Made by a program: the position numbers and the translations under genes. The notes under the pieces are model-generated. The model was not told the origin of the DNA. It saw only the letters and a program-made list of their open reading frames with translations, and made no database searches. This document shows, in pieces, positions 6,302 through 23,002 of a DNA stretch of 24,408 nt. Origin of the DNA: a virus; the IMG/VR virus record IMGVR_UViG_3300007734_000908, positions 1 to 24,408 of that record; one strand, 5' to 3'. Every line of letters begins with the position of its first letter. Within the stretch, counting starts at the first letter, position 1.

Positions 6302-7030
6302 ATGATAGGAATTTATAAAATAACAAGTCCAAGTGGAAAAATCTATATTGGACAGAGTGTAAATATTAAAAAAAGAGAGAAAGAGTACCTAAGTACAAGC
6401 AACTGCAAGAGCCAAGTAAAACTACACAACTCACTATTAAAATATGGTTTCTCTGAACATATATTCGAAGTTGTAGAAGAGTGCAAGGTAGAGGTACTGA
6501 ACGAACGTGAGAGATATTGGCAAGATTTCTATAATGTACTCAAAGAAGGATTGAACTGTAGACTGACAGGAACAGAAGATAAATCAGGAAAGATGTCTAA
6601 ATATTCTATAGAAAGGATGTCACAAAGTAGTGGCAAAGCAGTACTTCAGTATACAACTGAGGGATTACTTGTCCAAGAGTGGAGATCAATTAAAGAAGCA
6701 GCCAAGATTCTAAAAGTCGATATAACAAATATATCAGCATGCTGTAGAAATAAAATTAAATCCTCAGGTGGTTTTATTTGGAGATACAAAGCAGGTACAG
6801 TGGAAAACACTATCCAGGTTGAAAAAGTAGGGTATCAATCTCAAATAGAAAAACTAAACAAGCCAATACTCCAGTACGATAAAAGTATTAACTTTATTAA
6901 AGAATGGAAATCCCTTACCGAAGTTACAAATACACTAGGAATACGACAAGGAGACATTTCAGCCTGCCTTACAGGAAGACAGAGAGTTGCAAAAGGATTT
7001 ATTTGGAAATATAAAATACTACCTAAATAA
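6302..7030 (+). CDS. GIY-YIG homing endonuclease with two NUMOD1 repeats
   Basis: 242 residues. The N-terminal catalytic domain has GIYKI (residues 3-7) and KIYIGQSVNIKKRE (the YIG motif and the catalytic Arg region), with a Glu/Asn-rich end near residue 70-85. Two DNA-binding repeats of the NUMOD1 type follow: about 115-165 (AVLQYTTEGLLVQEW...GGFIWRYK) and about 187-240 (PILQYDKSINFIKEW...KGFIWKYK). A free-standing mobile nuclease; no intron boundaries visible. It lies behind a terminator, so expression may need read-through, as is common for homing genes. ATG 6302 has no nearby AAAGTT context. Confidence 0.85.
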   Translation: MIGIYKITSPSGKIYIGQSVNIKKREKEYLSTSNCKSQVKLHNSLLKYGFSEHIFEVVEECKVEVLNERERYWQDFYNVLKEGLNCRLTGTEDKSGKMSKYSIERMSQSSGKAVLQYTTEGLLVQEWRSIKEAAKILKVDITNISACCRNKIKSSGGFIWRYKAGTVENTIQVEKVGYQSQIEKLNKPILQYDKSINFIKEWKSLTEVTNTLGIRQGDISACLTGRQRVAKGFIWKYKILPK

Positions 7031-7077: not shown

Positions 7078-7644
7078 ATGATACTAGAATTACCAAAACC
7101 AAAACAAAGAAATTTATTTTTTACAAAAGATGTAGATGCTGAAAGTATAGCGAAACTAACAGAAGCTCTTATTGAAATAGAAGAAAGTGATAAGGATCTT
7201 AAAAAGATTTACGAACTCTATGATTTAGTATATACACCAAAACCTATTAAAATTTATATAGATTCTTATGGAGGGTATGTGTATCAATGCTACGGATTAC
7301 TGAGTGTAATGAAAGCATGTAAAACTCCAATTCATACAATTGTAACAGGATGTGCAATGAGCTGCGGATTCTTAATGGCTATTACAGGACATAGAAGATT
7401 TGCATATCCAAAATCAACCTTAATGTACCACCAAATATCATCAGGATCTTGGGGTAAAGCAAAAGACATAGAGGAACGTATTGTCGAAACTAAAAGACTA
7501 CAAAAGATGTTAGAACAACATACTTTAGAGCATACCGGTGTAACAAAGGAGAAACTTAAAGAAGTTTATAAGACAAAATTTGATTGGTACATGACTGCGA
7601 AAGAGGCTTTAGAGTTAAAAGTACTAGATGAAATTCTTAGTTAG
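7078..7644 (+). CDS. clpP: ClpP-like serine protease
   Basis: 188 residues with the full ClpP fold pattern: IYIDSYGGYVYQCYGLL (oxyanion-loop region), nucleophile Ser95 in GCAMSCGF, His118 in LMYHQ and Asp169 in KFDWYMTAKEALEL, followed by LKVLDEI. The catalytic triad is intact. The Ser motif differs from the bacterial GxAASM, and an extra loop near residues 33-52 is present, so it is diverged from host ClpP. No Clp ATPase is in the window. In phages such proteases serve as capsid-maturation proteases or as partners or modulators of the host Clp system; the neighbours here are metabolic, so the second is as likely. Start ATG 7078 is in an ACAAAGTT context behind its own promoter. Confidence 0.88.
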   Translation: MILELPKPKQRNLFFTKDVDAESIAKLTEALIEIEESDKDLKKIYELYDLVYTPKPIKIYIDSYGGYVYQCYGLLSVMKACKTPIHTIVTGCAMSCGFLMAITGHRRFAYPKSTLMYHQISSGSWGKAKDIEERIVETKRLQKMLEQHTLEHTGVTKEKLKEVYKTKFDWYMTAKEALELKVLDEILS

Positions 7645-8138: not shown

Positions 8139-8711
8139 ATGAAAAAGATCCAATACATTTCCCGTAAAGGGAATTTTGATTCAGGTCATAGAGTAATGAA
8201 TGAGTTTATGAAATGTTTTAACATTCATGGACACACGTATCTTTATGAACTGACATTCTCATTTGAGAATATGGAAGAGATCGGTTATGCAATCGACTTC
8301 AAAGAGATTAAAAGAGTATTCTGTCAATGGATAGATGATATTTTAGATCATGGAATGATTCTTAATCCAAAAGATGAATTACTTATTCAGACTACAAAAG
8401 ACTATGGAACTAAGCTTTGGTTGATGTCTCTAAACGGAGAAGGAGAGTATTGTAATCCTTCAGTAGAGAATATTGCTAAAGAAGTATTCCTAGCAATGAA
8501 TATACTTTCAGATACTTTATATGCAAATACCCCAACAGGATTAAAGATTCACAAAGTACAAATCTATGAAACACCAAACTGTTCTACAGAATGTGTATTC
8601 GATAGTATTTCTGAAAATGAATATGTAAACTTTGCAAAAGCAAATAAGCAAGCTATTAAAGCTTACGCAGTAGAAAAAGGAGTATTAGAATATGATGATA
8701 GAAAAAAATAA
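8139..8711 (+). CDS. queD: 6-carboxy-5,6,7,8-tetrahydropterin synthase (QueD)
   Basis: 190 residues of the 6-pyruvoyl-tetrahydropterin synthase/QueD T-fold. Zinc ligands His17 (FDSGHRV), His30 and His32 (NIHGHTY); catalytic Cys26 just before them; His71 in LDHGMILNP; Glu144 in VQIYETPNCST for pterin binding. It turns dihydroneopterin triphosphate into 6-carboxy-tetrahydropterin, step two of 7-deazaguanine synthesis, between FolE (12722) and QueE (9800), both present here. Longer than the usual 120-140 residues because of an insertion at about 82-112 and a C-terminal helix, seen also in other phage versions. Same operon as the small genes around it. Confidence 0.92.
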   Translation: MKKIQYISRKGNFDSGHRVMNEFMKCFNIHGHTYLYELTFSFENMEEIGYAIDFKEIKRVFCQWIDDILDHGMILNPKDELLIQTTKDYGTKLWLMSLNGEGEYCNPSVENIAKEVFLAMNILSDTLYANTPTGLKIHKVQIYETPNCSTECVFDSISENEYVNFAKANKQAIKAYAVEKGVLEYDDRKK

Positions 8712-8712
8712 T

Positions 8713-8922
8713 ATGAATAAAGAAATTAAACTATCGAAAGAAGAAGCAGAACAATTGTTCGGTGAAATCGATAACGAAGGATTTGGTTATTGGGTTGAGG
8801 AATATGGATACGATGGAGAAGAAGATCCTGAACTAATAGAGCTTTGTGAAGAAGCTAAAGCTGCTATGAAGAAATTAAGAAAGCATATTGATGCTATTTG
8901 GGAACATTATGAAATCGGATAA
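8713..8922 (+). CDS. Unknown small acidic protein
   Basis: 69 residues, very acidic (EEYGYDGEEDPELIELCEEA), helical. Not recognised. Start placed at ATG 8713, one base after the queD stop; ATG 8692 in the same frame would overlap queD by 20 bases. Acidity could suit a DNA-mimic or anti-restriction role, but that is speculation. Confidence 0.6.
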   Translation: MNKEIKLSKEEAEQLFGEIDNEGFGYWVEEYGYDGEEDPELIELCEEAKAAMKKLRKHIDAIWEHYEIG

Positions 8923-8923
8923 T

Positions 8924-9055
8924 ATGGTAGCAACACATAACTTAACAATGGATGAGTTCCATCAGTACTTACAAAATGTAATAGACTCTAACTTAAATCT
9001 AAGACAAAAAGTAGTAGCGGTAGAAAGATATATAAAACAAATAACAGGTAGATGA
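8924..9055 (+). CDS. Very small unknown protein
   Basis: 43 residues (MVATHNLTMDEFHQYLQNVI at the start), one base after the previous stop and coupled to the next gene by an ATGA overlap at 9052-9055. Helical; not recognised. Supported mainly by spacing and by the absence of an intergenic gap otherwise. Confidence 0.55.
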   Translation: MVATHNLTMDEFHQYLQNVIDSNLNLRQKVVAVERYIKQITGR

Positions 9056-9279: not shown

Positions 9280-9819
9280 ATGGATTATCAAAAAATTTAC
9301 AGCCAGCTGATACTAAAAGCTAAAGAAAGAAGGACAGTTGAAGGATATAAAGAGCTTCATCATATTATTCCTAAATGCGTAAAAGGAACTGATGATGTAA
9401 ATAATCTAGTAGAATTGACAGCCAAAGAGCATTTTATAGCACATCTACTTCTTACTGAGATTTATCCTAAGAGTCAAAAACTAAAGTATGCTTTATGGAT
9501 GATGGCAAGTATGGAAGCTCCTAATCAAAATAGGTATAAGGTTTCTGCAAACATGTACAGAATTATAAAAGAGCAGATAGCAAAAAAAAGCATAGAGCAT
9601 AAACAAAAAATCTCAGAAGGACTAAAAAGAGCCTACCAAGAAGGAAAAAGAGTTTCAAATGCAGGAAAGATAATGCCAAAGGAATTTGGAGAAAAGATTT
9701 CTAAAGCAAAGAAAGGAATGGTAGGAACAAATAAAGGCATTCCGATGTCGGAGGAACAGAAGAGAAAAATATCAGAAACATTAAAAAATAGAAATAAAAA
9801 TGGGATTAAAAAGAATTGA
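9280..9819 (+). CDS. HNH homing endonuclease, paralogue of 1072 gene
   Basis: 179 residues. HNH core HHIIPKCVKGT and NLVELTAKEHFIAHLLL, nearly matching the endonuclease at 1072; both start MDY(K/Q)K and share about the first 80 residues. Then NUMOD3-like repeats (HKQKISEGLKRAYQEG, FGEKISKAKKGM, SEEQKRKISETLKNR). It lacks the C-terminal CxxC finger of its paralogue. Inserted just before queE, overlapping its start by 20 bases. Confidence 0.85.
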   Translation: MDYQKIYSQLILKAKERRTVEGYKELHHIIPKCVKGTDDVNNLVELTAKEHFIAHLLLTEIYPKSQKLKYALWMMASMEAPNQNRYKVSANMYRIIKEQIAKKSIEHKQKISEGLKRAYQEGKRVSNAGKIMPKEFGEKISKAKKGMVGTNKGIPMSEEQKRKISETLKNRNKNGIKKN

Positions 9820-10579
9820 GGATTTTAATAAGACGCTTCCTATTATTGAACTATACACTGCAGTGCAGTCAGAGGGAAGTAGAGCAGGATATCCTACAGT
9901 AGTAATTCGAACTACTGGTTGTACACATCGCTGCTGGTTCGGAGATGGAGGTTGGTGCGACAGTTGGTATAGTTCTATTCATCCAGAAAAGGGAAGTTCA
10001 ACTTTCCAAGATATTATTAACATGTATGATAAGAATCCTCACATCACAGAGATGATGCTAACAGGAGGATCACCAACCATGCATCCAGCATTAGTAAACG
10101 AACTAACACATTTTGCACATGACAGAGGAATTTTTATTACTATTGAAACAGAGGGATCACATTTCCTGGAAACAGACTTTCCGATTAATTTACTTAGCAT
10201 TAGCCCTAAGTTTTCTAACTCTATTCCACGGGTGGGTATATCTACTCCAGGAGGTGATATCGTCGACGAAAAGATGGTTAAGCAACATAATAAGTTAAGA
10301 TTAAATTATGATGCAATATCTAAATCAATTGCTTATCATTCCGATTATCACTTGAAGCCAGTATGGGATGGAGAGGATCAAGAAGCATTGGCAGAGATTA
10401 TGAATTGTATTAAAATGCTAGACATACCTCAAGACAAAGTATGGTTCATGCCAGCAGGAGATTCAAGAGAGGCTTTATTCAAATCATATCCAAAAATGTT
10501 TGATTGGGTGAGAGATAATGGTTATAGATTAACCTGGAGACCTCACATCATTGCATTTGAAGACCAAAGAGAAGTATAA
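9800..10579 (+). CDS. queE: 7-carboxy-7-deazaguanine synthase (QueE), radical SAM
   Basis: 259 residues. Converts 6-carboxy-tetrahydropterin to 7-carboxy-7-deazaguanine (CDG) by radical SAM ring contraction. N-terminus IIELYTAVQSEGSRAGYPTV is the typical QueE substrate/SAM entry; cluster cysteines Cys41, Cys45 and Cys53 form CX3CX7C rather than the common CX3CX2C. MLTGGSPTMHP is the SAM-binding GG motif, IETEGS and LSISPKFS are later conserved strands. Start ATG 9800 lies inside the end of the HNH gene; it leaves a normal QueE N-terminus, so the mobile gene has not damaged it. Acts with FolE, QueD and QueF encoded here. Confidence 0.92.
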   Translation: MGLKRIEDFNKTLPIIELYTAVQSEGSRAGYPTVVIRTTGCTHRCWFGDGGWCDSWYSSIHPEKGSSTFQDIINMYDKNPHITEMMLTGGSPTMHPALVNELTHFAHDRGIFITIETEGSHFLETDFPINLLSISPKFSNSIPRVGISTPGGDIVDEKMVKQHNKLRLNYDAISKSIAYHSDYHLKPVWDGEDQEALAEIMNCIKMLDIPQDKVWFMPAGDSREALFKSYPKMFDWVRDNGYRLTWRPHIIAFEDQREV

Positions 10580-12650: not shown

Positions 12651-12679
12651 TTGCAGAATAGAATAAAAAATGTTATATT
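12651..12679 (+). promoter_or_regulatory. -33/-7 promoter for folE
   Basis: TTG 12651-12653 directly after the PRTase stop, 20-base spacer, TATATT 12674-12679. Predicted transcription start about 12686, i.e. right at the 5' end of the riboswitch-like element. Confidence 0.75.
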
Positions 12680-12686
12680 AAATAAA

Positions 12687-12721
12687 ACGGAGTCGTAGAA
12701 CCTCCATAAAAACAAAACTAT
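12687..12721 (+). promoter_or_regulatory. Candidate preQ1 class I riboswitch controlling folE
   Basis: P1 GGAG (12689-12692) / CTCC (12702-12705) encloses loop TCGTAGAAC, followed by an A-rich tail ATAAAAACAAAACTAT. Compared from memory with the Thermoanaerobacter tengcongensis preQ1-I aptamer (loop UCGCAGUAAC, tail with AACAAAAC), the loop matches except for C-to-U and loss of one U, the tail shares AACAAAAC, and C12701 takes the place of the ligand-pairing C. Pseudoknot P2 can form from GTAG (12695-12698) with CTAT (12718-12721), immediately before ATG 12722. Ligand binding would therefore cover the start region. P1 is short (4 pairs), which is the weak point. Confidence 0.68.
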
Positions 12722-13429
12722 ATGTCAAATAAAAAATTTATCGACGGTACAGAATTAGTACAAGCCGGATTCGCTAATGGAATATCAACACAATTGGCTA
12801 AAAAACAATTAACTGAAGGTCCAGAAGCAAGATTAACTGAAGTAGAAAAGCAACATATTATTGAAGATGCTGCTGAAGCATTTGGTAACTTCCTTACAGC
12901 TTTAGGATGCGATTGGAAAAATGATCCAAACTCTTCTGATACTCCTAAAAGAGTTGCAAAGGCTTATGTAAATGATTTATGGGCCGGACGATTTGAACCG
13001 TTAACAAGAATTACAGCATTCCCTTCAGATGGGTATGATGGAATTGTATTTGAAGGAAACATTCCAGTTACCTCAATGTGTTCACACCATCACCAAACAA
13101 TTACAGGAAAGGTTCATATCGGATATGTTCCTTCAGCAGATGGAAAGGTAGTAGGACTTTCAAAACTAAATCGAATTGTAGAGCAATTTGCTCGTAGAGG
13201 AGCTATTCAAGAACAGTTAACAGTTGCAATTCATAATGCAGTAGATAAGATCTGTGAGGGTAATCTAGGAGTGGCAGTTATGATTGAAGCAGGTCACAAT
13301 TGCGTAAGCTGTAGAGGAGTAAAGCATGAAGGAGCTTCAATGAAGACAGCAAAGCTAACAGGATGTTTCTTAGAAGAAGATTCGGCAAGAGCAGAGTTCT
13401 ATCAATTTACAAAAGGATATAAACTTTAA
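12722..13429 (+). CDS. folE: GTP cyclohydrolase I (FolE)
   Basis: 235 residues. Converts GTP to 7,8-dihydroneopterin triphosphate and formate, the entry step of the deazaguanine (and folate) pathway. Core motifs: TPKRVAKAY, then VTSMCSHHHQTITGKVHIGY with zinc ligands Cys120 and His123, GLSKLNRIVEQFARRGAIQE, and EAGHNCVSCRGVKHEG with zinc ligand Cys194. The extra N-terminal 45 residues are variable in this family. It stands behind its own promoter and a preQ1-like aptamer, so expression is probably lowered when preQ1 accumulates. Feeds QueD (8139). Confidence 0.95.
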   Translation: MSNKKFIDGTELVQAGFANGISTQLAKKQLTEGPEARLTEVEKQHIIEDAAEAFGNFLTALGCDWKNDPNSSDTPKRVAKAYVNDLWAGRFEPLTRITAFPSDGYDGIVFEGNIPVTSMCSHHHQTITGKVHIGYVPSADGKVVGLSKLNRIVEQFARRGAIQEQLTVAIHNAVDKICEGNLGVAVMIEAGHNCVSCRGVKHEGASMKTAKLTGCFLEEDSARAEFYQFTKGYKL

Positions 13430-14337: not shown

Positions 14338-14598
14338 ATGCAACAGGCATTAGACCATTTAGAAAAGCATAAAGTATTTATTGATACTTTAGGTATAGAT
14401 ATGATTCCTTTATCGGAAGCTTACAAAGCAATTCAATTATCAGTAGACCAGCAACTAACAAATGTAACAGCAATGTTAGAGGATAGCTTATTAAAATTAG
14501 GAGTAGATATAAACGAAATACAAGACGAATTAGAAAATGATCAAAATAGCACACGAGAGTCCGAAATCAATATTCAAAGAGGTACAGAAGGTAACTGA
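14338..14598 (+). CDS. Unknown small helical protein
   Basis: 86 residues, helical, acidic, Gln/Leu-rich (LSVDQQLTNVTAMLEDSLLK). Not recognised. Two bases after the MazG-like gene. Its last 62 bases overlap the start of the dpdA-like gene in another frame, and the tail from about residue 68 (DQNSTRESEINIQRG) is low in structure, so the end may simply be read-over into the next gene. Confidence 0.6.
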   Translation: MQQALDHLEKHKVFIDTLGIDMIPLSEAYKAIQLSVDQQLTNVTAMLEDSLLKLGVDINEIQDELENDQNSTRESEINIQRGTEGN

Positions 14599-15331
14599 CT
14601 ATGACTATGCACTAGTCCACTTATTTGAAGAAGATCCTGAATACTTGAAGCAATTTCAAGAGGCAAAAGAGAATGGAAGAGAAATTATTTTAGATAATTC
14701 TATCTTTGAATTAGAAGAAGCCTTTGATGCAGAGAAGTTTGCAGGATGGGTATTGGAATTAAAACCAGATTGGTATATAGTTCCGGATGCTTTAGAGGAT
14801 GCAAAGAAGACTTGCAATCAAATGGCAGAGTGGAATATGAGATATAAAAATCTTCCAGGAAAGAAAATAGGAGTTGTTCAAGGAAAAACATATCATCAAA
14901 TTAAGGCTTGTTACGAGTATATGGATAAGATTGCAGATGTAGATATGATTGCAATTTCTTTTGATTATTCGTACTATGCTGAAACAATTCCACATCCTAA
15001 CAAGTATGTTAGTTGGATGCTAGGAAGGGTTAAGCTACTGGGAGACTTATTGAGAGACGGTTCTATAAATCAGAATAAGCCTCACCATTTACTAGGGACT
15101 TCGCTTCCGCAAGAAGGACTTTTTTATAAAGATTATAAATGGATTTATTCAATGGATACGTCTAATCCTGTTGTAGCAGGAATAAAAGGAGTAGAGTACA
15201 GAGAAGAAGGTCTTTGGCATAAAGAATCTCAAAAATTATTTGAATTAATTAATCAACCAGTAGATCAAATAGATATTAATAAAGTACTATACAATATAAA
15301 TAAATTTAAGTATTTTTGGAAAAGTAAATAA
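14537..15331 (+). CDS. dpdA: DNA 7-deazaguanine transglycosylase (DpdA-like, TGT superfamily)
   Basis: 264 residues. TGT-like TIM barrel: ILDNSIFELEE (Asp53), WYIVPDALED (Asp84), IGVVQGK (112-118, matching the FGIVQGG strand of tRNA-guanine transglycosylases), HHLLGTSLP (matching RYLMGVGTP), and SMDTSNPVVAG (Asp207 at the place of the catalytic nucleophile, D.S.P like DC..PT). The TGT zinc site CxCxxC is missing, as in short phage DpdA proteins. It would cut guanine from DNA and insert a deazaguanine base. Its pathway partners folE, queD, queE, queF and a formyltransferase are in this window. Start MIKIAHESP taken at 14537 despite a 62-base overlap. Confidence 0.82.
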   Translation: MIKIAHESPKSIFKEVQKVTDYDYALVHLFEEDPEYLKQFQEAKENGREIILDNSIFELEEAFDAEKFAGWVLELKPDWYIVPDALEDAKKTCNQMAEWNMRYKNLPGKKIGVVQGKTYHQIKACYEYMDKIADVDMIAISFDYSYYAETIPHPNKYVSWMLGRVKLLGDLLRDGSINQNKPHHLLGTSLPQEGLFYKDYKWIYSMDTSNPVVAGIKGVEYREEGLWHKESQKLFELINQPVDQIDINKVLYNINKFKYFWKSK

Positions 15332-15379: not shown

Positions 15380-15970
15380 ATGAAAGTAGTAGGGTATAGG
15401 ACAGTAAACAAAGTAAACGGAAACTATTATTACGGAGTTAGAACTTTAGTTAGAGATAATGATCCGTACCTGGGATCGGGTATTAGATTAAAAGAAGCAG
15501 TAAGAAAGTATGGTAAAGAATCTTTTATTCGAGAAGACTTGATAATATTTAATACATTTAAAGAAGCTTTAGAATGGGAAAGAGTTGTAATAACAGAAGA
15601 GCTGCTCCAAGACCCTAGATGTTATAATTTAAAACCAGGGGGAGCCGGAGGAAGTTTACCTTGGAGTGAAGAGAAGAAAAAAGAGGTAGTAGAGAAAGGT
15701 TCTTATAAAAAGTCTAATACAACAAAAGAAAAAATATCTCAAGCACATAAAGGGAAAACTGGAAGCTTCTTAGGTAAATCTCATTCAGAAGAATCTAAAG
15801 AAAAGATGTCAAAAATACGTAAAGGAAAGCAAGGAACTTTTTTAGGAAAGTCTCATTCAGAAGAGAGTAAGCAAAAGATGAGAAAGCCAAAAACAGAAGA
15901 ACAGAAACAGAAAATTAGGGAAGCATTAAAAAAATATCATACAGATAGAAAAAATGGAAGCAAAGTATAA
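15380..15970 (+). CDS. GIY-YIG (Seg-like) homing endonuclease with NUMOD3 repeats
   Basis: 196 residues. N-terminal domain: VVGYRTVNKVNGNYYYGVRT (GIY/YIG strands in the divergent Seg-like form), PYLGSGIRLKEAVRKYGKE (catalytic-helix region), LEWERVVITEELL (catalytic Glu region) and YNLKPGGAGG. Three NUMOD3-like repeats follow, two of them near-identical (GSFLGKSHSEESKEKM and GTFLGKSHSEESKQKM), pointing to recent internal duplication. Placed between the transglycosylase and the formyltransferase genes with its own promoter motif; its end overlaps the next start by 17 bases. Confidence 0.82.
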   Translation: MKVVGYRTVNKVNGNYYYGVRTLVRDNDPYLGSGIRLKEAVRKYGKESFIREDLIIFNTFKEALEWERVVITEELLQDPRCYNLKPGGAGGSLPWSEEKKKEVVEKGSYKKSNTTKEKISQAHKGKTGSFLGKSHSEESKEKMSKIRKGKQGTFLGKSHSEESKQKMRKPKTEEQKQKIREALKKYHTDRKNGSKV

Positions 15971-17208: not shown

Positions 17209-18135
17209 ATGACACAAGAATTAAATCAAGCAGAAGTAATAAAACTTGCAGGAAAACATTTAGGACAAGTAGGTGGAGCTGGTTATAGCGATACTTACGA
17301 TCCAAGTCTATTGGTAGAGATTCCACGTTACTTGAATAGAGAAGCGTATGGAATTGATGATAACGATCTACCATTCGTAGGAGGAGATGTATGGAATGCA
17401 TATGAAGTATCTGCAATCACCACAAAAGGACTTCCGGTAGTTGGAATGTTAAAGATCTGGTATCCAGCAAATTCAAAATTACACGTAGAGTCTAAATCAA
17501 TTAAATTGTATTTGAATTCATTCAATATGACTCAACTAGGAGAATCAGATCATGAATGTATTGCTTTACTAAAAGAGAGAGTAAAGAAAGATTTATCCGA
17601 CTTACTTCAGACAGAAGTGGAAGTAGAAATGTTTACCTCAGACTATACTCCAAGTTATTCTTTTAAAGGATATGCACCACTAGATGCTTTAATTGACTTA
17701 AATGCAATTGAATTTACTTCTTATCATTCAGATGCAACACAATTGCAAGCAGACGAAGTAGATGAAGATTTTGAAATAGGAGAGATAAAAGTACAGTCTA
17801 ATCTTTTAAGATCAAATTGTAGAGTAACAAATCAACCAGACTGGGGTGATGTATTTATTCACATTAAGCCTAAAGCAGGAGTTGTACCCAACCTACAATC
17901 ATTAGCAAAATATATTGTAAGCCATAGACAAGTAAGTCACTTTCATGAAGAGATTTGTGAGATGATCTACATGCACTTAAAAGAAGCTTATACTCCAGAA
18001 GAATTAATGGTAGCTTGTTTATACACTCGTAGAGGAGGATTAGATATTAATCCAATTAGAGCTTCACATAAAGAATTAATACCAGGATTCTTTACAGACA
18101 TTCACTGTAGAATGGAAAAAACATTACGTCAATAA
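17209..18135 (+). CDS. queF: NADPH-dependent preQ0 reductase (QueF), two-domain type
   Basis: 308 residues, bimodular T-fold QueF like the Escherichia coli enzyme. N-half: DVWNAYEVSAITTKGLPVVG and VESKSIKLYLNSFN (the ESKS substrate motif, Glu94). C-half: LLRSNCRVTNQPDWGDVFI with nucleophile Cys204 and Asp211, FHEEICE with His246 and Glu247, and YTRRGGLDINPIR. All residues needed to form the thioimide with preQ0 and reduce the nitrile to the aminomethyl of preQ1 are present, which argues against the amidotransferase-type QueF-like proteins. An acidic insert at about 180-192 makes it longer than usual. One base after the kinase; its last base is the first of the next gene's ATG. Confidence 0.92.
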   Translation: MTQELNQAEVIKLAGKHLGQVGGAGYSDTYDPSLLVEIPRYLNREAYGIDDNDLPFVGGDVWNAYEVSAITTKGLPVVGMLKIWYPANSKLHVESKSIKLYLNSFNMTQLGESDHECIALLKERVKKDLSDLLQTEVEVEMFTSDYTPSYSFKGYAPLDALIDLNAIEFTSYHSDATQLQADEVDEDFEIGEIKVQSNLLRSNCRVTNQPDWGDVFIHIKPKAGVVPNLQSLAKYIVSHRQVSHFHEEICEMIYMHLKEAYTPEELMVACLYTRRGGLDINPIRASHKELIPGFFTDIHCRMEKTLRQ

Positions 18136-21053: not shown

Positions 21054-21359
21054 ATGTCAAAGACGTTACAAGCAAACAACGACAGAGTTATTATCAAACC
21101 TGTCGACCAGTCAGAAGAAATGTACGGAAGTATCATTATTCCGGACATGGGTAAAGAAAAGCCCGAAATGGGAGAGGTTATCTCAGTAGGTCCAGGACGC
21201 CAGTCTGAATTTGGATCATGGATAGAAGTTAAAGCCAAAGTTGGAGATGTAGTATTAATTCCTAAGATCGGTTCAATGCGAATTGACTTCGAAGGAGAAG
21301 AATATTTTATTACACCAGACAGAGAAATTTTAGCAACAATTAAAGAATCACAAGAGTAG
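21054..21359 (+). CDS. groES: Co-chaperonin GroES, phage-encoded
   Basis: 101 residues, full GroES fold: NNDRVIIKPVDQSEE, the mobile loop around EEMYGSIIIPDMGKEKP with the hydrophobic IIIP tripeptide that docks on GroEL, GEVISVGPG, KVGDVVLIP and a C-terminal strand REILATI. Forms the heptameric lid of GroEL. The mobile loop differs from the bacterial GGIVL form, which may tune binding to its own GroEL partner. Two bases before groEL; same operon. Confidence 0.93.
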   Translation: MSKTLQANNDRVIIKPVDQSEEMYGSIIIPDMGKEKPEMGEVISVGPGRQSEFGSWIEVKAKVGDVVLIPKIGSMRIDFEGEEYFITPDREILATIKESQE

Positions 21360-21361
21360 TT

Positions 21362-23002
21362 ATGAGTAAACAAATTAGTTTCGGAAAAGATTCCAGAGAA
21401 AAATTACGTTCAGGAGTAGATCAATTAGCAGATGCAGTAGTATGCACACTAGGTCCTTCAGGAAGAAACGTATTTATTCACCGTCAAGGTGCAAGTCCAA
21501 TTTCAACAAAGGATGGTGTAACAGTAGCAAAAGAGATCACATTAGAAGATCCAGCAGAAAATACTGGAGCACAAGCTGTAAAAGAAGTAGCAATCAAATC
21601 AGCAACACAAGCTGGAGATGGAACTACTACAGCAACATTACTTGCAAGAGAAATTTATGTTCAAGGTTTAGATGCTTTAGCAGATTCAAATGCAGTAGAA
21701 GTAAAAAGAGGGATTGATACTGCAGTAAAAGCTGTTGTAAAGTATTTGCAGGATGATTACTCAAAAGACATTACAGACGAATTGCAATTAAAACAAGTAG
21801 CAACAATCTCAGGTAACAACGATCCTGAAGTAGGAAATCTTATTGCAACAGCAATGGATAAGGTCGGTAGAGATGGTTTAGTAACTATTGAAGAATCTAA
21901 GACAGGAGATACTTATCTCGAAACTGTAGAGGGTATGCAATTCAACAGAGGATACAAATCTCCATACTTTGTTACAGATAACAATACTATGACCTCAGTA
22001 TTGAACAATCCTTTAATTCTTATTACAGATAAAAGATTACAGCATATTAAAGAGATGTTACCACTACTAGAATCAGTATCTCAACAAAATAAAGACTTAC
22101 TTATCATTGCAGACGATATTGATGCAGAGGCATTATCAACACTTGTTGTAAATAAAATGAGAGGTGTACTAAGAGTAGTAGCTGTAAGGGCTCCTGAATT
22201 TGGAGACAAAAAGAAAGCAATGCTAGAAGATATTGCAACCTTAACTGGAGGTACAGTTGTTTCATCGGAGAAAGGAATGAAGCTTGATAAGTTTGATCCA
22301 AATTGGTTTGGTAAAGCTAGAAAAGTAATTGTAGGTAAAGATGAAACTACCATTGTAGATGGTAAAGGATCTGAAGAAGCAATCAATCAAAGATTAGATG
22401 AATTAAAAGAACAAATCGATAATACAGTTTCACCTTACGAGAAAGAAATCTTACAAGACAGATTAGCAAAACTTATTGGAGGAGTAGCAATCATACATGT
22501 TGGAGGTCATACTGAAGTAGAGATGCGTGAAAAGAAAGATAGAGTTGATGATGCACTTCATGCAACACAAGCAGCCTTACAGGAAGGATACTTACCTGGA
22601 GGAGGAATTGCTTTATTAAATGCAGCAAACTATCTACAAAATATCTTAGAAGGAGATATAACCTCTCATCCAGATCAAGAGAAAGGTATCGATATTGTAA
22701 TCAGAGCAATCAGAAAGCCATTCGAACAAATTCTATTGAATGCAGGAGAGACTCAAGACAAGATTGAGGACAGAGAATTAACTCTACTTGCAGGAGATAA
22801 ATGGTTAGGATTTAATCCAAGAACAGGGCAATACGTTAACATGTTAGATGAAGGTATTATTGATCCAACTAAAGTAACAAGACTAGCTTTAGAAAATGCA
22901 GCATCAGTTGCAGGAACAATGTTAATCACAGAGTGTGTAATTGTAGACAAGAAAGACAATAAAGAACCACAAGGGGAAGTCAATCCTATGGACTTTATGT
23001 AA
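21362..23002 (+). CDS. groEL: Chaperonin GroEL, phage-encoded
   Basis: 546 residues, full length. Equatorial ATP site: LGPSGRNVFI, STKDGVTVAKEI (Asp51), GDGTTTATLLA (Asp86) and DRVDDALHATQAA with the ATP-hydrolysing Asp. GGG loop at YLPGGGIALL. Apical domain around 190-370 with the usual substrate-binding helices (QHIKEMLPLLESVSQ). The C-terminus ends VNPMDFM instead of the bacterial GGM repeats, so the cavity floor differs. Would fold phage capsid or other proteins, with the phage GroES just upstream. ATG 21362 in TAGTT context, directly after the groES stop. Confidence 0.96.
   Translation: MSKQISFGKDSREKLRSGVDQLADAVVCTLGPSGRNVFIHRQGASPISTKDGVTVAKEITLEDPAENTGAQAVKEVAIKSATQAGDGTTTATLLAREIYVQGLDALADSNAVEVKRGIDTAVKAVVKYLQDDYSKDITDELQLKQVATISGNNDPEVGNLIATAMDKVGRDGLVTIEESKTGDTYLETVEGMQFNRGYKSPYFVTDNNTMTSVLNNPLILITDKRLQHIKEMLPLLESVSQQNKDLLIIADDIDAEALSTLVVNKMRGVLRVVAVRAPEFGDKKKAMLEDIATLTGGTVVSSEKGMKLDKFDPNWFGKARKVIVGKDETTIVDGKGSEEAINQRLDELKEQIDNTVSPYEKEILQDRLAKLIGGVAIIHVGGHTEVEMREKKDRVDDALHATQAALQEGYLPGGGIALLNAANYLQNILEGDITSHPDQEKGIDIVIRAIRKPFEQILLNAGETQDKIEDRELTLLAGDKWLGFNPRTGQYVNMLDEGIIDPTKVTRLALENAASVAGTMLITECVIVDKKDNKEPQGEVNPMDFM

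Follow-up and report, generated by a model that had tools for sequence, protein, structure and literature searches.

A probable class I preQ1 riboswitch in the folE leader of a virus related to Flavobacterium phage immuto

The folE gene of this virus is preceded by a short leader, which raises the question of whether a riboswitch governs the gene, and of which kind. The window, by which we mean the whole 24.4-kb virus record that was analysed, is kin of Flavobacterium phage immuto, with 85.6% identity across the folE region; the leader features and pathway genes given below are on its plus strand. Read directly from the sequence, the leader is bounded by a stop codon whose last base is 12650 and by the folE start codon (12722), and it begins with a Bacteroidota-type promoter (12651-12679), consisting of TTG at 12651-12653 and TATATT, of the TAnnTT type, at 12674-12679. 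The promoter is followed by the hairpin GGAG-UCGUAGAAC-CUCC at 12689-12705, then by AUAAAAACAAAACUAU, and then by the AUG. The loop TCGTAGAAC at 12693-12701 ends in C12701, and CTAT (12718-12721) stands directly before ATG 12722. A preliminary description had proposed a switch of the preQ1-I type here, and its coordinates for the stem P1, the loop, C12701, the A-rich tail, the promoter elements and the ATG were correct when re-read in the sequence.

The gene behind the leader encodes GTP cyclohydrolase I (FolE, 12722-13429; Pfam PF01227, 3e-45). The window also codes for QueD (8139-8711; PF01242, 8.7e-27), QueE (9800-10579; Radical SAM, 8e-8, and QueE models), and, within the folE gene run, QueF and a DpdA-like protein. 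QueF, of the preQ1 synthase family (17209-18135), matched PF14819 (2.7e-33) and PF14489 (1.8e-20), which bears out the earlier claim that the same phage carries this enzyme; its match to TIGR03138 (8e-78) was under the cut-off of that model. The DpdA-like protein, downstream of folE (14537-15331), matched nothing in Pfam or NCBIfam and belongs to PHROG 19058, a group of unknown function; it was assigned by way of an immuto homologue that is annotated as DpdA. No QueC was identified in the window proteins examined, but it was found in immuto and 13 further records of the 20 searched. The modified base dPreQ1 has been reported in the DNA of the QueF-bearing viruses Dp-1 and HVTV-1 (PMC6884629). 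The biosynthesis genes are interspersed with ORFs that resemble homing endonucleases: those at 6302-7030 and 15380-15970 matched GIY-YIG/NUMOD1 and NUMOD3 in Pfam, and those at 1042-1716 and 9280-9819 are HNH-like by eye, with no Pfam match. A GroES-like ORF, a GroEL-family chaperonin (PF00118) and a ClpP-family protease (PF00574) were also seen, at 21054-23002 and 7078-7644.

Among FolE relatives in IMG/VR, the same hairpin was often found just 5' of the start codon, and immuto has the folE-type element as well. Many of these relatives carry a second copy of the leader about 2-3 kb upstream, before a small membrane-protein ORF that is followed by queD and queE; no second copy precedes queD in this window. 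Pattern scans of IMG/VR that were blind to gene content, the first of which was too strict and gave 0 matches, yielded 114 distinct sites. Every site with readable downstream sequence (110 of 110) precedes folE, folE2 or queD/queE: 64 stand before the small ORF of the queDE operon, 39 before folE, 5 directly before queD or queE, and 2 before folE2, and at the remaining 4 of the 114 the sequence ends 47-81 bases on. Two contigs have an unrelated ORF first after the leader, then the small ORF, queD and queE. A TAnnTT element lies 1-19 bases 5' of P1 in 100 of 103 leaders. FolE and FolE2, which come from different protein families, catalyse the same reaction; in contig L132 the leader precedes FolE2 (GTP cyclohydrolase IB, 8336-8942; PF02649, 1.6e-25), so that here the enzyme family has changed and the control element has not.

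The conserved small membrane protein (65-107 aa) that most relatives encode between leader and queD has the core PDxKxHQxxSFIKSGIRIxGY...EIVGIIEELV. It was seen in L026 (779-982), L113, L130, L148, L156 and the queDE operons of the 12-kb relatives of the window, and the L026 copy had no match in Pfam or PHROG.

An A-rich leader with a fortuitous hairpin is the simplest explanation of such a site. Adenine is the most frequent base ahead of the other ORFs of these viruses, and the folding energy of the window site, from single-sequence folding, is ordinary (z -1.0). The recurrence of the element at 114 sites, its exclusive gene association and the covariation described below speak against this explanation, and the run A4C was seen in no more than 7.7% of the leaders of their other ORFs, so that we regard chance as practically negligible. 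A descriptor of the type II core of the Tte riboswitch (from Thermoanaerobacter tengcongensis) gave 1 match in the window against 0.005 expected from Markov-shuffled windows, a result that is somewhat favourable because the descriptor was written after the site had been seen. It was confirmed that the folE leader element is real and beyond chance.

The stem P1, whose 5' strand GGAG (12689-12692) and 3' strand CUCC (12702-12705) are defined by covariation, was paired in 98.8% of cells among 61 sequences. Its outer pair was AU in 33, GC in 15 and UA in 10 of them, and its third pair was UA in 47 and AU in 14, while the closing G-C was present in 61 of 61, its G and C being partly set by the search pattern. 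None of 500 shuffles reached as high a covariation score, and shifting the partner register abolished it. Mapped on the FolE tree, the GAG and the GUG stem type each require 7 changes; 5 and 6 of these are made unavoidable by supported branches, indicating repeated compensatory change (or exchange of leaders).

The first part of the loop, UCGUAG (12693-12698), corresponds to U6 C7 G8 N9 A10 G11 in Tte numbering, and it is followed by a two-base L2 (AA) and the specificity base C12701, equivalent to C15 (12699-12701). U6, A10, G11, A14, C15 and C16 are invariant in the set A2 and C7 is nearly so, this conservation being in part a consequence of the search pattern; in members added later, G8 (UCACAG) or A14 varies. 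In the structure of Tte, the ligand is read by C15 (PMC10622847) and also contacted by U6 and A29, and C7, G11, C30 and A14 form the ceiling of the pocket (PMC10622847, PMC11625349); the floor corresponds to G5, here G12692. The residues that contact preQ1 in Tte are conserved in the phage leaders. Behind the stem, an A-rich L3 (12706-12712) leads to C30 (12713) and N33 (12716). An A-run and then a C, 7-9 bases after P1, were found at 83 of 83 leader sites with a pattern that required the hairpin only; among these sites the FolE-selected loci had not been chosen for A-run and C, and the pattern-selected ones had. The candidate aptamer, from the start of P1 to N33, is 28 bases long (12689-12716).

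The preliminary description had drawn the pseudoknot P2 as four pairs, GTAG/CTAT. These pairs are able to form in the window sequence; they are lost in close relatives, and we rejected this P2 as unconserved. A Tte-like pseudoknot of G12698-C12713 and U12696-A12716 (G11-C30 and N9-N33) is better supported by the comparison of leaders. N9 covaries with the third base after C30, with U-A in 39, U-G in 9, C-G in 4, G-C in 2, A-U in 1 and G-U in 1. In members without U9, N9-N33 is paired in 8 of 14 against 2.8 after shuffling (p 0.001, uncorrected for kinship), and this register is better than the neighbouring ones. G11-C30 never varies and so gives no covariation signal. Tte has C9-G33 at the N9-N33 position.

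The Rfam search that the preliminary description had proposed was negative. When cmscan was run against Rfam, at the gathering cut-off and at E up to 10, nothing was listed; a search of the record with only RF00522, the class I model, at the same E limit gave one match, at 12683-12727, of 10.3 bits against a cut-off of 39. The related leaders scored at most 21.8 bits. The printed consensus of RF00522 carries the letters of type I, GGUUC...UCCC. As a calibration, IMG/VR was searched with Tte-like patterns, which turned up two further viral contigs with a type II aptamer: L281, linked to yhhQ, was unlisted with RF00522, and L282, linked to queT, reached 21.4 bits. As RF00522 fails on both, a missing Rfam match is not evidence against a type II aptamer. 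In seven contigs found with a widened Tte pattern, only L281 and L282 were aptamers before transporter genes, and the rest, lacking a stem or a plausible gene, were rejected. RF00522 searched against 395 Bacteroidota genomes gave 1 match over the cut-off and 4 weak ones, with no que gene noticed among the downstream ORFs listed, which were read without a profile search. Additional RF00522 matches in G005, G009 and, once, G013 were set aside, as they are not the phage leader element.

Less circular evidence came from models of our own, whose E-values are rough. R2, built from queD/queE leaders of other phages only, found 12685-12720 in the window with 33 bits (E 1.8e-5), the next best match having 13 bits. 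R3 was built from three sequences, Tte, L281 and L282, without any folE or queDE leader; we take its Tte sequence to be that of the crystal construct. It placed 12686-12724 first in the window with a modest 17.2 bits (rough E 0.026; next 12.5), and its six best matches in 115 kb of phage DNA were all folE, folE2 or queDE leaders. R1, the phage model, does not find L281 or L282, which marks the phage group, with its two-base L2, as a distinct sub-variant. A match of R1 in phi13:1 (W02 658-693, 19.6 bits) has no loop and was rejected. R1 found no leader in 396 Flavobacteriales genomes, a weak test with strict filters, and blastn of the 35-base queDE-type element against cultured phages gave no true match.

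A conserved hairpin that is not a riboswitch should also be considered: the pathway genes could be coordinated through an RNA thermometer, or through a protein of phage or host that binds the RNA. A stem of four pairs close to the start codon could be enough for this, and the GUG/CAC members are also able to form a shifted hairpin. Such a site would hardly account for a pocket that matches Tte letter for letter, a C at fixed distance, N9-N33 covariation, the first rank of the site with R3 and the strict limitation to genes of the preQ1 pathway. We regard this explanation as improbable.

Most of the contigs in this analysis are fragments. In those selected by FolE alone, the leader and QueF occurred together in 20, the leader only in 1, QueF only in 3 and neither in 11 (Fisher p 9e-6, uncorrected for kinship); phages with the leader thus usually encode QueF. 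The three contigs with QueF and no leader are L074, L086 and L052 (G784, G789, G779), and two of their QueF proteins are divergent (38-41% identity). The same fold could have preQ0 or another 7-deazaguanine of the pathway as its main ligand rather than preQ1. Type II aptamers separate preQ1 from preQ0 only 17-fold (PMC11625349), and one leader contig shows no visible QueF, though it is a fragment of 18.8 kb. The leader nevertheless tracks QueF in the FolE-selected contigs and the pocket matches that of preQ1 binders, and so we consider a ligand other than preQ1 rather unlikely.

Taken together, the data make the folE leader very probably a preQ1 riboswitch of class I, closest to type II and carried by a phage, in which the ligand would block the initiation of folE. 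The earlier proposal of a preQ1-I-type switch on folE is well supported by the comparative evidence of covariation, core and pathway genes; its P2 as drawn has to be replaced, the negative RF00522 search is no refutation of it, and the element of many relatives stands before a queD/queE operon too. Both types of class I have been reported in Bacteroidota. The leader has the short P1 (about 4-6 bp in class I) closed by an invariant G-C, the strictly conserved C before the P1 3' strand, the A-rich L3 with a loop pseudoknot, and the location before preQ1 pathway or transport genes that characterise class I. The type II features, AC directly before the P1 3' strand and the U6 C7 ... G11 core, are present in the loop, whereas the UC before the P1 3' strand and the UU atop the 5' strand of type I are replaced by AC and UC.

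The element shares with Tte the H-type pseudoknot plan, the closing G-C of P1, U6 C7 G8 N A10 G11, AC before the P1 3' strand, the A-rich L3, C30 and, at +3, a base that can pair with N9. It differs in that its L2 has two bases and not three, its P1 is often only 4 bp, it has no Shine-Dalgarno sequence, its A-tract being the likely expression platform, and it is borne by phages before folE and queD/queE for DNA modification. L281 (4325-4361, before a Vut_1, YhhQ-family, gene) and L282 (2494-2533, before queT) have the same core motif and the L3-C-A-A-G plan, but they carry an AAGG Shine-Dalgarno sequence, transporter genes, the loop UCGCAGUNAC and, like Tte, an L2 one base longer than in the phage group. 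The switch of the Bacillus subtilis queC operon (class I type II) also controls de novo pathway genes, but it has a longer loop, acts by transcription termination (PMC11625349) and has a fully paired P2 like that of the preliminary description, a type unconserved in the phage group. The glutamine riboswitches of marine phages (Melnitz and others, PMC9004378) are likewise carried by phages and absent from the host, but they have another aptamer and ligand, and the Melnitz one lies at a tmRNA gene and not at a biosynthetic pathway. In the literature searched, which covered few subscription journals, a preQ1 riboswitch in a phage, or one tied to the modification of DNA instead of tRNA, was not found.

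Flavobacterium ribosomes work without a Shine-Dalgarno sequence, and adenines at -3, -6, -12 and -13 together with low structure promote initiation (PMC6847099). In the window, -12 and -13 (12710 and 12709) lie inside L3, and -6 (12716) is N33. Adenine stands at -10/-11 in 93-94% and at -12 in 80% of 113 sites, compared with 54-58% in other leaders. In 111 of the 113, P1 begins 29-37 bases ahead of the AUG, so that the untranslated region is little more than the aptamer. As L3 coincides with the A-tract of Bacteroidota initiation, ligand binding would probably block initiation directly; repression by the ligand would follow the known class by analogy. Transcription would start just before the hairpin, and at low ligand the A-rich stretch before the AUG would be free for a Bacteroidota ribosome to initiate without a Shine-Dalgarno sequence. 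When preQ1 (less likely preQ0) builds up, C12701 would pair with it, L3 would dock in the minor groove of P1, and G12698-C12713 and U12696-A12716 would complete the pseudoknot, which ends five bases short of the AUG. The A-tract would thereby be covered and the initiation of folE blocked. The second copy that many relatives carry may do likewise for the queD/queE operon. On balance we favour the view that this is a phage-specific preQ1-I subtype, in which L3 doubles as the A-tract landing site, the platform needs neither Shine-Dalgarno sequence nor terminator, and the product feeds back on DNA hypermodification.

Type II members escape the Rfam PreQ1 model, and the number of such switches is therefore probably underestimated. 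The leader would offer a very small system for riboswitch action on ribosomes that do not use the Shine-Dalgarno sequence, and it would suggest how a phage stops drawing on host GTP once the modified base suffices.
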